43,727 nucleotides of DNA from Bacteroidota bacterium. Its GTDB lineage: Bacteria > Bacteroidota > Rhodothermia > Balneolales > Balneolaceae. The notes under the pieces are model-generated. The model was not told the DNA's origin and did no database searches. It saw nothing but the letters and a program-made list of their open reading frames with translations. Shown piece after piece: positions 17,837-43,727 of this stretch. Location of the stretch: positions 8,831 through 52,557 of the forward strand of contig PZPG01000005.1 of assembly GCA_003045995.1 (NCBI GenBank). Reading direction: 5' to 3'. Position numbers and translations under genes: made by a program. Each line of letters begins with the position of its first letter. Position 1 is the first letter of the stretch.

Positions 17837-20228
<2,392 letters not shown>

Positions 20229-20474
20229 ATGGCACGACGAGATGATATTACCGGAAAAGGGGCTCTAAACGGGTACCGGTCTTCCAAAGCCAACAACAAA
20301 ACCAAGCATCGGTTTCAGCTGAATCTGCAGAAGCGACGTTTCTACATCCCGGAAGAGGATCGTTGGGTAACGCTGAAAGTATCTGCAAAGACGCTTCGTA
20401 CGATTAATAAAAACGGCATCTCTGCTGTCTTGAAAAAGGCGAAAGAGAAAGGAAGCCTTTTAAAGGAGGTCTAA
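20229..20474 (+). CDS. rpmB: Ribosomal protein bL28
   Basis: The 81-aa protein is bL28, a component of the 50S subunit. It has a basic composition and the characteristic TKHRFQLNLQKRRFYIPEE and WVTLKVSAKTLRTI segments. It is the first gene of a tight operon with rpmG (3-bp gap between stop and next ATG) and the DUF4295 gene, ending at an intrinsic terminator. Confidence 0.95.
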   Translation: MARRDDITGKGALNGYRSSKANNKTKHRFQLNLQKRRFYIPEEDRWVTLKVSAKTLRTINKNGISAVLKKAKEKGSLLKEV

Positions 20475-20477
20475 ACC

Positions 20478-20642
20478 ATGGCGAAAGGAAATCGAATTCA
20501 GGTTATTCTGGAGTGCACCGAGAAGCCGGGAAGTTCACGATATGTGACGATGAAGAATCGGCGAAATACCACAGAGCGGATTGAGCTCAAAAAATACAAT
20601 CCGGTGCTGAAAAAGCATACGGTTCACAAAGAGATTAAGTAA
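20478..20642 (+). CDS. rpmG: Ribosomal protein bL33
   Basis: The gene encodes 54 residues starting [20 protein letters not shown] and ending [10 protein letters not shown]. It matches bL33 of the zinc-free (Cys-minus) type, having one cysteine and none of the CxxC pairs. A strong AGGAGGT Shine-Dalgarno overlaps the end of rpmB, 7 bp before the ATG. It is part of the 50S subunit, near the E site. Confidence 0.95.
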
Positions 20643-20667
20643 GACGTTTACGTAAGGAGATCACGTT

Positions 20668-20835
20668 ATGGCAAAGAAACAGGCATTTGGTGAAGAAGCT
20701 CAGGCGATGAAAGCTTCGCAAAGAAAGATGGCGAAAGTGGTGATCGCAAAGAAAGGAGATCACGGCAAGTACAACTATCGCGAATCCATGATGGATCAGG
20801 AGAGCGTGAACGAATTTATTCAGAAGAATAAGTAA
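20668..20835 (+). CDS. DUF4295 small basic protein, probable ribosome-associated protein
   Basis: The gene encodes 55 residues, MAKKQAFGEEAQAMKASQRK and onward to SVNEFIQKNK. It matches DUF4295, a short basic family found after rpmB-rpmG in the Bacteroidota and relatives. From memory, a lineage-specific large-subunit protein of this kind has been reported in a Flavobacterium ribosome structure; I treat that identity as likely but not proven here. AAGGAGATCACGTT upstream supplies a ribosome binding site. It is the last gene before the terminator. Confidence 0.85.
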   Translation: MAKKQAFGEEAQAMKASQRKMAKVVIAKKGDHGKYNYRESMMDQESVNEFIQKNK

Positions 20836-20873
20836 CGTTTGTCTTTTGTGCCGGAGTTATTAAAAGTTCTTAG

Positions 20874-20905
20874 AGCTGTGTTCATATGAATGCAGCTTTT
20901 TTTTT
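20874..20905 (+). terminator. Intrinsic terminator of the rpmB-rpmG-DUF4295 operon
   Basis: AGCTGTGTTCAT (20874-20885) pairs with ATGAATGCAGCT (20886-20897) except for a two-base internal mismatch, and a run of nine T (20897-20905) follows. It begins 39 bp after the DUF4295 stop. It is the clearest rho-independent terminator I see in the window. Confidence 0.75.
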
Positions 20906-20934
20906 GCCTATATTTTGGCCGGCTTTGGGAGGTG

Positions 20935-20970
20935 GAGCTGGCGGGTCTGCTAGAGCTGGCGGCACGTAGG
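20935..20970 (+). repeat. Partial 18-bp x2 tandem repeat upstream of yqeY
   Basis: GAGCTGGCGGGTCTGCTA (20935-20952) and GAGCTGGCGGCACGTAGG (20953-20970) share their first ten bases and little beyond them. It is older or weaker than the other arrays and is not anchored to a stop codon. The rest of the 20906-21062 gap shows nothing recognisable. Confidence 0.45.
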
Positions 20971-21062
20971 CAGATCCTGCGTGGCCCGGAAGTTTTGCCA
21001 TCCGGTGAGCGAACCCCATCAACCCGAATAAAAAACAATCTGAAACCCGGAATTCACAAGTT

Positions 21063-21524
21063 ATGGCAACGAAAGACACAATTTTGAACGACTTGAAGGA
21101 GGCGATGAAGGCACGGGATGCGGCGAGGTTGCAAGTGCTTCGATCGCTGAAGGCGAAAATTTTGGAAAAGGAGATTAGTCTGCGGAGTGGTGGGAAGGCG
21201 GAAATTTCGGAGGAGCAGGTTGTGGAGGTGCTTGTGAAGGCGGCGAAGCAGCGGCGGGAGTCGATTGATCAGTTTGAGAAGGGGGGACGGGAGGATTTGG
21301 CGCAGACAGAGCGGGCGGAACTGGAGATTATTGAGTCGTATCTGCCGGCGCAAATGGGAGAGGAGGAGATTCGGGCGGCGGTACGGCAAGGGATTGAGGA
21401 GACTGGCGCGGCGGGAATGCAGGATATGGGGCGTTTGATGGGGTTGATGATGGGGCGATTGAAGGGCAAGGCGGACGGGTCGGCGGTGAACCGGATTGTG
21501 AAGGAAGAGTTGGGGGCGTTGTGA
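21063..21524 (+). CDS. yqeY: YqeY/GatB-domain protein
   Basis: The 153-aa protein matches the YqeY family, a stand-alone homologue of the C-terminal domain of GatB (tRNA amidotransferase). Typical segments are MKARDAARLQVLRSLKAKI at the N-terminus, IESYLPAQM in the middle and DMGRLMGLMMGRLKGKADG near the end. The molecular role is not well established; a tRNA-binding or amidotransferase-linked function is assumed. Its TGA overlaps the GTG start of cvpA (GTGA), which implies translational coupling. Confidence 0.9.
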   Translation: MATKDTILNDLKEAMKARDAARLQVLRSLKAKILEKEISLRSGGKAEISEEQVVEVLVKAAKQRRESIDQFEKGGREDLAQTERAELEIIESYLPAQMGEEEIRAAVRQGIEETGAAGMQDMGRLMGLMMGRLKGKADGSAVNRIVKEELGAL

Positions 21525-39879: not shown

Positions 39880-40842
39880 TTAAAAGGGTTCGATGGATTT
39901 GGAAACTCTGTCAATCAAATCCCTTCGTTTCTGAATCAAGCTGTTCGGAGACTGAACGACCACCTTATCGCTAAACTGAAGCAACCACTGATTGAGAAAG
40001 TCTAGATTATCGAACCGAAGCTCAACCTTAATTATTTTAGAACTAACCGCCTCATACTTAATTATTTTCGTTGGTATATTCGCCTTAAACGCGCGATCTA
40101 TCGATTTATCGATGTGGAGTACCACTTTTTCTCCGAGGTTGCTAGAATTAAAAATAAGTGCTTCTGCGTTAAAATCGTCCGGGGTCTCAAAAATCTGATC
40201 CGTAACTGATAGATCAGTGATCTGATCGAGGATAAAATTACGGGTTTCACCTCGAATGTGTGAAAACCCGATCATATTCCAGTGATCTTTGTAAAACACA
40301 AGCAGATAGGGGTCGACCTTTCGGCGTGTCGTCTGGTTTTTTTTCAAACTCTTATAGGTAAACTGTATGGTTTGCTGCTCGGCAATGGCGGAACTGATGA
40401 GGTACCAGTTCCCTCCCTCTTTTTTTTCATGCCCGAAATTCAGAAATGGATCAACGATCGTCTTATTATGAAGTGAATTCATGAAGGCGCGCAACTTATC
40501 CGGCAACAGCTCCTTTACTTTGATTTCAACTCCTTTTGCATCATTCACCAGATTCCGGTCTACCTGGGATTTTACAAAGTTTAGACCTACCATAATGGTG
40601 GCTAACTCTCTCGTTGTGAACATCAACGGTGGAATATTGTACCCCGAAATCACACCATATCCCTTAAATGGATCGTGTGTAACCGGAACATTTAGTTCGG
40701 AAAGTGTATTCAGGTCTCTGTAAATCGTACGTTTGGTTACCCCAAACCGGTCTGCCAGCTCCTGTGCGGTTAGCCTCTCTTTGGATTGCTGAAGCATCAA
40801 GATCAGCTTCATCCTCCTCTCTGTACTTTTTAGTTTCGACAT
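39880..40842 (-). CDS. WYL-domain transcriptional regulator (YafY type)
   Basis: The 320-aa protein has an N-terminal DeoR-like winged helix (LTAQELADRFGVTKRTIYRD, about 24-43) and a WYL domain (about 135-215, including IQFTYKSLKKNQTTRRKVDPYLLVFYKDHWNMIGF described by its ends). C-terminal YafY-type extensions follow. WYL domains bind nucleic-acid or nucleotide ligands and control stress, repair or defence genes. It leads an apparent operon with the TM2 and DUF2752 genes. A sigma-70-like promoter lies just upstream. Confidence 0.88.
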   Translation of the reverse strand: MSKLKSTERRMKLILMLQQSKERLTAQELADRFGVTKRTIYRDLNTLSELNVPVTHDPFKGYGVISGYNIPPLMFTTRELATIMVGLNFVKSQVDRNLVNDAKGVEIKVKELLPDKLRAFMNSLHNKTIVDPFLNFGHEKKEGGNWYLISSAIAEQQTIQFTYKSLKKNQTTRRKVDPYLLVFYKDHWNMIGFSHIRGETRNFILDQITDLSVTDQIFETPDDFNAEALIFNSSNLGEKVVLHIDKSIDRAFKANIPTKIIKYEAVSSKIIKVELRFDNLDFLNQWLLQFSDKVVVQSPNSLIQKRRDLIDRVSKSIEPF

Positions 40843-40912: not shown

Positions 40913-41560
40913 TTATGCGTCCGGATTGGTAAGCTTCACCAGCGCTTTCCCTTCATAGAATGGTTCTTCTTCTCCAAATTGAAAGGATCGGATCTCTGCT
41001 TCAACCGGATAGGGCGCGTCCTTCAACTCTTTGCGGATATCCTCCGCACCTTTCCAGAGGAGGATCGTTTCCCACCCTGAATTACGCACTTTTTGAAGCA
41101 GGTCGGGGATTTTAAAGGCGTGCTTTGAAACAATCCCACAATCTGGTTGCAGCTGGTGCAATGCAATACTTTGAGCGACTGTTCCTGTATTTCTAAGGCC
41201 GCATTCGGATATAATAGCTTCAACTACACGAATCTTTTTGCGAACATTATCATTCAGAATCCACCGTGTTCCTGGAGTTTGTATGGCCAGGGGTATTCCG
41301 GGAAGCCCCCCTCCTGTTCCGGCATCCACCCAGCAGCTATGGAGGTCGATCCATCCCAAAGGCACTGGAAGTAGTGAATGAACAATATGTTCCCGAATTG
41401 TTTCACGTGAAACATTTCGGCTCATGATATTGATTTTCTGATTCCATATGAGAACTTGATCGATATATCTTTCAAGTGCAGTTTCTCTTTTTTGATAAAT
41501 CTCTCGCGCTTTTTTTAGGATATCCACGCCTACCGGTTTCTCTATCACAGAATGTTTCAC
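40913..41560 (-). CDS. rsmG: 16S rRNA (guanine527-N7)-methyltransferase RsmG
   Basis: The 215-aa enzyme (GidB) methylates G527 of 16S rRNA; its loss gives low-level streptomycin resistance. Key segments are WNQKINIMSRN (39-49) and the SAM-binding VDAGTGGGLPGIP (78-90). The start is GTG (41558-41560), supported by a strong TAGGAGG six bases upstream. That GTG is itself part of a parS-like sequence. Residues 49-54 (NVSRET) are encoded by a perfect parS. It follows mnmG with 10 bp between stop and start, the classic gidAB arrangement. Confidence 0.94.
   Translation of the reverse strand: MKHSVIEKPVGVDILKKAREIYQKRETALERYIDQVLIWNQKINIMSRNVSRETIREHIVHSLLPVPLGWIDLHSCWVDAGTGGGLPGIPLAIQTPGTRWILNDNVRKKIRVVEAIISECGLRNTGTVAQSIALHQLQPDCGIVSKHAFKIPDLLQKVRNSGWETILLWKGAEDIRKELKDAPYPVEAEIRSFQFGEEEPFYEGKALVKLTNPDA
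41399..41414. promoter_or_regulatory. parS: parS site (perfect 16-mer) inside rsmG
   Basis: TGTTTCACGTGAAACA matches the known ParB-binding parS consensus at all 16 positions and is a perfect palindrome. It lies in the rsmG coding sequence, encoding the NVSRET segment. ParB-CTP clamps load at such sites to organise and segregate the origin region. Confidence 0.9.
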
Positions 41561-41568
41561 GTGAAACC
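41553..41568. promoter_or_regulatory. parS: Second parS-like site over the rsmG start codon
   Basis: TGTTTCACGTGAAACC matches parS at 15 of 16 positions and lies 154 bp from the first site. It covers the GTG start of rsmG and touches its Shine-Dalgarno sequence, so ParB binding could affect transcription or initiation there. Confidence 0.8.
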
Positions 41569-41570
41569 TC

Positions 41571-43466
41571 CTACTGTTTCAGGTAGATCATCAGTACCGA
41601 CAAATCACTAGCCGACACACCACTAATTCGGGAAGCCTGCCCAATCGTCTCGGGTCTGATCTTTGTAAGCTTGATTCGTCCTTCAGAGGACAGACTTTTA
41701 ATCCGCTCATAGTTCAGTTGCTCCGGTATCCGGGTGTTCTCCTTTTGGCTTAGTTCATGAACCATCTCAAACTCTCTTTTGATGTACCCCTCATATTTCA
41801 GCTGGATTTCCACCTGCTCAATTACTTCGTTGGACGTCGTGATCTCATCTACCTTCTCTTTCAGATTGCTGTCCGCTCCGATGATGTCACCAAGACTTAA
41901 TTGGGGTCTAGGGACAAGAGATCGGGCTTTCATGGGCTGAGGTAGTTTTGCTGTACCTTTTTCCTCGAGCATTGGATCTAAAACCTCTGGTCGAACCGTG
42001 TAGTCCGAGACAAGCTGAAACAAAAGATCGATCTCCTCCTTTTTCTTTCGATATCGCATCACACGCTCCTCCCCTGCTAATCCAATTTTATACCCCAGTT
42101 CTGTAAGGCGGAGGTCGGCATTGTCTTGTCGTAGTAAAATTCTGTGTTCGGCACGGGATGTGAACATACGATAGGGTTCTTCTGTACCTTTGTTGATTAG
42201 GTCATCAATCAATACCCCAATATATGCTTCGGATCGTTGCAAAATAAACGGCTCCGCATTGTCGACATATCTTGCTGCATTGATTCCAGCCATTAACCCT
42301 TGGCAGGCAGCTTCCTCATACCCTGTTGTTCCATTGATCTGTCCCGCAAAAAACAATCCGCTTACCTTTTTGGTTTCTAAGGTGCGCTTGATCTGATACG
42401 GCGGAAAATAGTCGTATTCAATAGCGTATCCAGGTCGTAACATCACCACATTTTGAAACCCTGGAATTCTTCTAAGTGATTGGTACTGAACGTCTTCCGG
42501 TAATGATGTGGAAAATCCATTCAGATACATTTCGTAGGTATTCCAACCCTCGGGTTCCAGAAACAACTGATGCCGATCACGGTCTGCAAAACGATGAATT
42601 TTATCCTCAATGCTCGGGCAGTAACGTGGCCCAACTGATTTGATCCGACCATTGAACATGGGGCTTCTGTCGAAACCTTCACGAAGATTGTTGTGAACCT
42701 CCGGGTTTGTATATCCGATCCAACATGTAAGCTGATCATCCAATGACGGTAGTTGATCCGTCATGAATGAGAAAGGCGATGGATTTGCATCTCCATACTG
42801 GATTTCAAGTTGATCGTAATCGACCGATCGTCCATCTAGCCGTGGCGGTGTTCCCGTTTTTAACCGTCCCACATCAAACCCGAGTTTTACTAAGGATGCA
42901 GTAATTCCAACGGAGGCTCTCTCCCCCGATCGTCCGCCTCCATACTGAGATTCCCCAATATGAATGAGTCCGTTGAGGAATGTGCCACTCGTAAGAATCA
43001 CAGAACGTGCACGAAATTGTTGTCCCGTTTGCGTAACAACTCCTTCGATGGTTTTGCCCGAAGGGTCTGTGAGGAGATCGACGACGTGATCCTGGCGAAA
43101 ATGCAGCATGTCCAGTTTCTCGAGTTCCTCTCTCATGATTGAAGCATAGAGCATGCGATCACTTTGACATCGCGGACTCCACATGGCAGGGCCTTTGGAG
43201 CGATTCAACATTCGGAACTGCACACCACTCCGGTCACTCACAATTCCGCTGAGACCTCCAAGCGCATCGATCTCTCGAACAAGTTGTCCTTTTGCAACTC
43301 CTCCCATGGCCGGATTGCACGACATCTTTGCAATGGCATCCATATTCATTGTGATCATGAGCGTTTTCGCACCCATCGCGGCAGCAGCTCCGGCAGCCTC
43401 ACTGCCCGCATGCCCTGCCCCGACAACAATTACATCGTATGTTTGATGAAGATGACCCGTATTCAT
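41571..43466 (-). CDS. mnmG: tRNA uridine-5-carboxymethylaminomethyl modification enzyme MnmG
   Basis: The 631-aa FAD-dependent enzyme (GidA) forms the cmnm5U34 modification in tRNA with MnmE. It has the Rossmann GAGHAG (16-21) and the conserved [25 protein letters not shown] and [16 protein letters not shown] segments, described by their cores. The C-terminal helical domain ends SVLMIYLKQ. The length is standard. The start [16 protein letters not shown] fits the family. mnmE is not in the window. It is upstream of and coupled to rsmG. Confidence 0.96.
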
Positions 43467-43510: not shown

Positions 43511-43586
43511 CTCTGTACTTTGTTGATTCTATTGTCCTGTGGTGATACTATTTTCCTGTGGTGATACTACTGTCCTGTGGTGTTAC
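43511..43586 (-). repeat. 19-bp x4 tandem repeat upstream of mnmG
   Basis: Units 43530-43548, 43549-43567 and 43568-43586 are close copies of TATTGTCCTGTGGTGATAC. A fourth, decayed unit occupies 43511-43529. If a minus-strand gene ends at 43583, its TAA stop lies in the unit nearest that gene, as in the other arrays. Confidence 0.85.
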
Positions 43587-43727
43587 ACTATTCTGTAATC
43601 CGTTCTCGTTCCCTTCAACGTGTATTTTCTTCCAATAATATGAGATATTCTACTATCTTCATGTATGGGGTTGGCGCTGAACTCCGAGAGATTGCCGGAG
43701 TTGGAGATTGTTGAAGTTGGAGATTGT
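43583..43727 (-). CDS. Possible C-terminal fragment of a gene running off the right edge
   Basis: A minus-strand frame is open from the edge to a TAA at 43583-43585 (48 codons), ending HIIGRKYTLKGTRTDYRIV. I do not recognise it. The main support is indirect: the TAA begins a 19-bp tandem array, as at nine other gene ends here. A different frame (ending YLILLEENTR, stop near 43616) is also open from the edge, so the call is weak. Confidence 0.25.
   Translation of the reverse strand, partial: QSPTSTISNSGNLSEFSANPIHEDSRISHIIGRKYTLKGTRTDYRIV
43679..43726. repeat. 16-bp x3 tandem repeat at the right edge
   Basis: Units GAACTCCGAGAGATTG (43679-43694), CCGGAGTTGGAGATTG (43695-43710) and TTGAAGTTGGAGATTG (43711-43726) are in tandem and may continue past the window. 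Two units share 13 of 16 bases. Confidence 0.75.

Follow-up and report, generated by a model that had tools for sequence, protein, structure and literature searches.

The two 16-bp palindromes in and at rsmG are very probably the chromosome centromere of this bacterium, a member of the Balneolaceae (Bacteroidota), namely the parS of a type Ia ParABS system. They lie in a stretch of 43,727 nucleotides (hereafter the window) taken from an assembly of 2.37 Mb in 117 contigs that is 97% complete. The reading draws on their sequence and uniqueness in the genome, their conservation, the selection acting on them as DNA, their proximity to DnaA boxes and to a change of GC skew, and the presence of ParA, ParB and SMC in the genome; the binding and spreading of ParB and the resulting segregation would be those of known ParABS biology.

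Features of the mnmG-rsmG-WYL locus (positions in the window)
Feature	Position	Strand	Description
parS site 1	41399..41414	.	Perfect 16-bp palindrome; rsmG codons 49-54 (N-V-S-R-E-T)
parS site 2	41553..41568	.	15/16 match; spans the rsmG GTG start and the final two Shine-Dalgarno bases
rsmG GTG start codon	41558..41560	-	Falls in the second half of the parS palindrome
rsmG Shine-Dalgarno AGGAGG	41567..41572	-	Shares bases with the mnmG stop (41571-41573) and with parS site 2
rsmG (gidB)	40913..41560	-	16S rRNA G527 methyltransferase, 215 aa; PF02527 GidB
mnmG (gidA)	41571..43466	-	631 aa; TIGR00136, 847.8 bits
WYL-domain regulator	39880..40842	-	Downstream of rsmG; PF13280, 61 bits

In a pattern search of the window, site 1 was TGTTTCACGTGAAACA, an exact match to the parS 16-mer inside rsmG just as the initial annotation had stated, and site 2 was TGTTTCACGTGAAACC. 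The annotation was also right that site 2 matches at 15 of 16 bases and covers the GTG start, but the site overlaps the Shine-Dalgarno sequence and does not merely adjoin it. The minus-strand sequence at 41573-41553, TAGGAGGTTTCACGTGAAACA, thus holds the mnmG stop TAG, the Shine-Dalgarno AGGAGG, parS and the GTG start together, and the only mismatch of site 2 (G in place of T at parS base 1) coincides with the penultimate G of the Shine-Dalgarno. Three parS matches with at most three mismatches were observed in the window, against a mean of 0.22 and a maximum of 2 in shuffled sequences. Copies scattered round the chromosome had been named as evidence against the initial reading; a search of the whole genome (2,373,183 bases, at most two mismatches) returned only the two clustered rsmG sites, 154 bp apart, and the reversed control pattern gave zero matches over the same bases at the same tolerance. 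By our own arithmetic, a genome of such size is expected to contain about 0.03 sites with at most one mismatch by chance, so that two of them within 154 bp are not a chance occurrence.

The gene that follows rsmG is the WYL-domain regulator and not parA or parB, as had been noted at the outset. RsmG matches the Pfam GidB profile at 70.6 bits (cut-off 27), though it stays under the TIGR00138 equivalog cut-off (71.4 versus 99.5 bits), and on these profile scores it is a divergent member. Upstream of mnmG, at 43520-43600 of the window, there are short imperfect tandem repeats resembling TGTCCTGTGGTGATACTA.

Does the genome encode the proteins that such a centromere requires? Profile search found one ParB (TIGR00180, 187.6 bits; ParB_N, HTH_ParB and ParB_C domains), the lack of which would have spoken against the initial proposal, and parA lies directly upstream of parB (L003:2291-3088 and 1249-2271, contig C17). 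A full-length SMC is also present (991.7 bits). The parS sites are on contig C81 and not beside parAB, a neighbourhood that is common for such centromeres but does not define them. When aligned with solved ParB and Noc chains, the protein reads GKNRTTVTNTIRLLQLP...ITSGHA, which places R173 and G201, and its four specificity positions read R-T-Q-G. The corresponding residues are R173, T179, A184 and G201 in Caulobacter ParB and Q, K, K and R in Noc, and R173 and G201 are conserved in all ParB orthologues (PMC7383237). The protein should therefore read parS, as predicted from its sequence. It is very improbable that the palindromes instead serve Noc, the nucleoid occlusion protein, or some other regulator of CACGTG-type sites. 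The same ParB does score on the TIGR04285 Noc model, at 240 bits against a cut-off of 315; however, its specificity residues are of the ParB type and do not match the Noc set Q173 K179 K184 R201, parA adjoins its gene, and the DNA sequence is exactly canonical parS and not NBS. Moreover, the two sites are near the origin, whereas Noc sites are scattered round the B. subtilis chromosome according to the accessible text of PMC4331003.

The sites are conserved across the order. Among 59 genomes from five families, our own included, 51 carry sites with at most one mismatch, mostly exactly two each, and nearly all genomes with a contig spanning the locus have two or three parS at mnmG-rsmG-WYL, a gene order that is itself kept across the order. 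The nearest named relatives belong to the Balneolaceae. All 29 loci fetched from Balneolaceae relatives have sites in or around rsmG, with RsmG proteins that share 32-57% identity with the query. Sites of the other four families are located at the 3′ end of mnmG, within rsmG or immediately beyond the WYL gene, always within mnmG-rsmG-WYL where that locus was recovered. As for the genomes that seem to lack parS at this tolerance, G006 and G024 carry sites with two mismatches beside mnmG or rsmG (two adjoining mnmG in G024), five others (G001, G012, G044, G052 and G056) have contigs that end in or next to mnmG, and in G026 no mnmG match was found. One genus (L027-L029 and related genomes) has the parS variants TGTTTCATGTGAAACA and TGTTTCACATGAAACA, with the peptide VSHET, and other genomes have the variant TGTTCCACGTGAAACA, with the peptide VPRET.

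Within a gene, parS can be read as GTT TCA CGT GAA ACN (VSRET) or as TTT CAC GTG AAA CAN (FHVK), while the third frame is closed by a TGA stop. At the rsmG start it is the FHVK frame that is used, with initiation at the central GTG or at an ATG or GTG created immediately upstream; sites within the gene that encode a VSRET peptide use the other frame. In almost all loci the in-gene sites give V-(S/P)-(R/H)-E-T, which could be taken to mean that the motif is a by-product of RsmG protein conservation and no DNA element. This interpretation is scarcely credible. All 42 RsmG VSRET peptides are written in the exact parS codons, at a background probability of about 0.0076 each, whereas the VSR of the NLVSR motif, two residues upstream, uses parS codons in 0 of 26 cases. 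Because most loci of this codon test had been fetched for carrying one or more parS-like sites, the count of 42/42 is in part ascertained; the control next to it and the almost complete occurrence of sites among relatives that were not so selected limit this effect. The peptide also moves with parS: depending on the lineage, VSRET stands at residue ~10-14, 29-34, 43-54, 148 or 175, and lineages with no parS at codon 50 have unrelated residues there. The codon usage thus indicates that the parS sites are selected as DNA and are so strictly kept that they set part of the RsmG sequence. In evolutionary terms, rsmG would have adapted its peptide to parS, with VSRET inside the gene and MK.. or MFHVK.. 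at its start. With parS at lineage-specific positions and the RsmG peptide moving along with it, the locus is a clear natural example of a protein shaped by a centromere.

The association extends over the phylum. An exact 14-bp core of parS was found in 138 of 198 Bacteroidota genomes drawn from the phylum, usually in one or two copies. Outside the order, mnmG was within 1.5 kb of the core in all 30 loci of a first set from other families and within that distance in 21 of 30 loci of a second set, with five more within 2 kb on a wider reading, which brings parS to within 2 kb of mnmG in 56 of 60 sampled parS-bearing genomes. The four exceptions are a locus on a 6-kb contig, one with rsmG and the WYL gene but without mnmG in the 20 kb read, and two with none of these genes. 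These loci gave no match to parA or parB. As the likeliest history we infer an ancestral mnmG-rsmG-parAB-parS cluster close to oriC, in which parS remained after the loss of parAB. Two further arrangements were seen: family f21 has two cores separated by ~1.9 kb, apparently one on either side of mnmG, and other families of the class to which our genome belongs (L237-L241, L248 and L256) have extra parS clusters near murQ-mfd or recF-like genes, ~4-5 kb from mnmG-rsmG, with up to seven sites per genome.

The position of site 2 invites the idea that it is primarily an operator, at which bound ParB blocks or modulates transcription of rsmG, and perhaps of the WYL gene, and so couples rRNA methylation to origin copy number. 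The overlap between parS and the rsmG start region is found again in most loci of the Balneolaceae and in several further families, and G072, elsewhere in the phylum, has a core adjoining the rsmG start. A similar idea was put forward for mycobacterial gidB (PMC2346475), and some parS-adjacent genes are silenced by ParB in P. aeruginosa (PMC7022226). However, the sites drift: some genera have none on the rsmG start (in G004, G022 and G032 they lie at codons ~50 and ~148 and ~510 bp upstream), one site in family f4 is beyond the WYL gene, and across Bacteroidota the sites are mostly before mnmG or after its stop. In B. subtilis, parS-adjacent genes are unaffected by the loss of Spo0J (PMC7022226), and overlap with a Shine-Dalgarno in DNA does not alone control translation. 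We thus regard a primary operator role as unlikely. Likewise unlikely is a centromere that doubles as a Balneolaceae-wide operator, in which ParB at the start-region parS would tune rsmG and the WYL gene with origin dosage. The putative link between ParB and rsmG expression, raised in the initial annotation, is not needed to explain the site.

If the sites are a centromere, how close are they to the origin? Between dtd and purM, a stretch of 350 bp (C81:70939-71289; L161:1972-2322) contains ten DnaA-box-like 9-mers; it is outside the window but belongs to the same contig, at 20.7 kb from parS site 1. We predict this cluster, which is syntenic in relatives and far from dnaA, to be oriC. DnaA boxes upstream of dtd were found in 24 of 28 loci, at ~0.6 per kb against a background of ~0.05 per kb, and in all 24 genomes with parS and dtd on one contig the two are separated by 9-68 kb (median 24 kb). 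In the single-contig relative G033, whose dtd is at 320.5 kb and whose parS is at 348.8 kb, strand-balanced GC3 skew turns from negative to positive at 315-335 kb and returns at 2.05-2.23 Mb, half a chromosome off. In G018 the skew flips at ~895-905 kb; the box cluster of this genome is at 895 kb, and its parS is at 963 kb. The skew of the second single-contig relative, G043, is noisy, and denser sampling is compatible with a change near 235-285 kb, where a first coarse sampling had suggested a later minimum. The description of the region as origin-proximal is supported by the DnaA-box cluster, the 24 genomes and the G033 skew.

On our own contig, GC3 skew flips not at the DnaA-box cluster but at gyrB-rpmB (window ~19.8-21.3 kb, in the gyrB / rpmB-rpmG region at 17837-21300), probably owing to a local rearrangement. 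The gyrA-gyrB-rpmB-tyrS block is inverted relative to G018 and G033 and stands ~20 kb from the WYL gene, which makes the local skew of this contig an unreliable marker of the origin. An origin at gyrB-rpmB, suggested by this skew and by weak DnaA boxes (window 18.9-20.1 kb), was rejected because gyrAB of the relatives adjoins the WYL gene without a skew flip and because the strong box cluster is at dtd-purM. Likewise rejected was dnaA as an origin marker, since it is 255-737 kb from parS in relatives; its use as a plotting landmark, as first recommended, would have been misleading. For parB the distance is 0.67-1.36 Mb in single-contig relatives: parS is 478 kb from dnaA and 1.36 Mb from parB in G033, and 255 kb and 670 kb, respectively, in G043. 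Just upstream of dnaA, at C69:4010-4277, there are three exact DnaA boxes and one variant, an arrangement that suggests autoregulation.

Taken as a centromere, the two sites would work as follows. ParB, encoded far away on another contig, would load as a CTP-dependent clamp at both sites, slide across mnmG-rsmG-WYL and recruit SMC, and ParA would pull ParB, which would make the newly replicated origin region the first to separate. Closeness to oriC, rather than to parAB or dnaA, is probably what holds the sites at mnmG-rsmG. They fall in coding sequence because this conserved parS address of the phylum is gene-dense. What we describe is an ordinary ParABS centromere in an instructive place. 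It suggests a simple rule for Bacteroidota, with parS beside mnmG-rsmG and both parAB and dnaA far off. Under such a rule, nearness to the origin and nearness to the par genes can be told apart as constraints on parS, and in metagenome-assembled genomes of the phylum parS would mark the origin better than dnaA does.

Since parS in or at gidB has already been published for Thermus and mycobacteria, the kind of arrangement is known; in our incomplete coverage of the literature, we did not find it described that parS moves within rsmG across the lineage and takes the peptide with it, nor that mnmG is its address throughout the phylum. Thermus thermophilus HB27 has a single chromosomal parS within gidB, near oriC, and binding of ParB to it was demonstrated by EMSA (PMC4409726). 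Our genome resembles it in having few parS sites, within rsmG and near oriC, at which ParB would likewise bind. However, parA comes right after gidB in Thermus, parAB is ~6 kb from oriC and there is one site (PMC4409726), whereas our genome has two sites and its parAB on another contig (0.7-1.4 Mb off in single-contig relatives). Mycobacterium bovis BCG and M. smegmatis have parS at gidB and within parA, and regulation of gidB by ParB was proposed there; in M. bovis BCG the gidB parS overlaps a promoter (PMC2346475). As in our genome there are two copies, both exact in the mycobacteria, one of them upstream of or at the gidB 5′ end (PMC2346475). The mycobacterial gidB, parA and parB are together, with the second site in parA (PMC2346475); in our genome rsmG is followed by the WYL gene and itself contains the second site.

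In a gut consortium that included Bacteroidetes, the accessible text of PMC10197239 describes parS clusters that mark ori by Hi-C and GC skew. In both cases the origin is marked by parS, whereas dnaA is not always a marker of it; that text reports no link to mnmG-rsmG, and it states that no known condensin was found in two gut Bacteroidetes, whereas our genome has a full-length SMC. With the Spo0J-parS system of B. subtilis our genome shares an identical 16-bp palindrome and sites in coding sequence, but B. subtilis has about ten sites over its origin-proximal region and our genome has two (PMC7022226). Across such systems, ParB is described as leaving the genes next to parS unaffected in B. 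subtilis and as repressing some of them in P. aeruginosa (PMC7022226).
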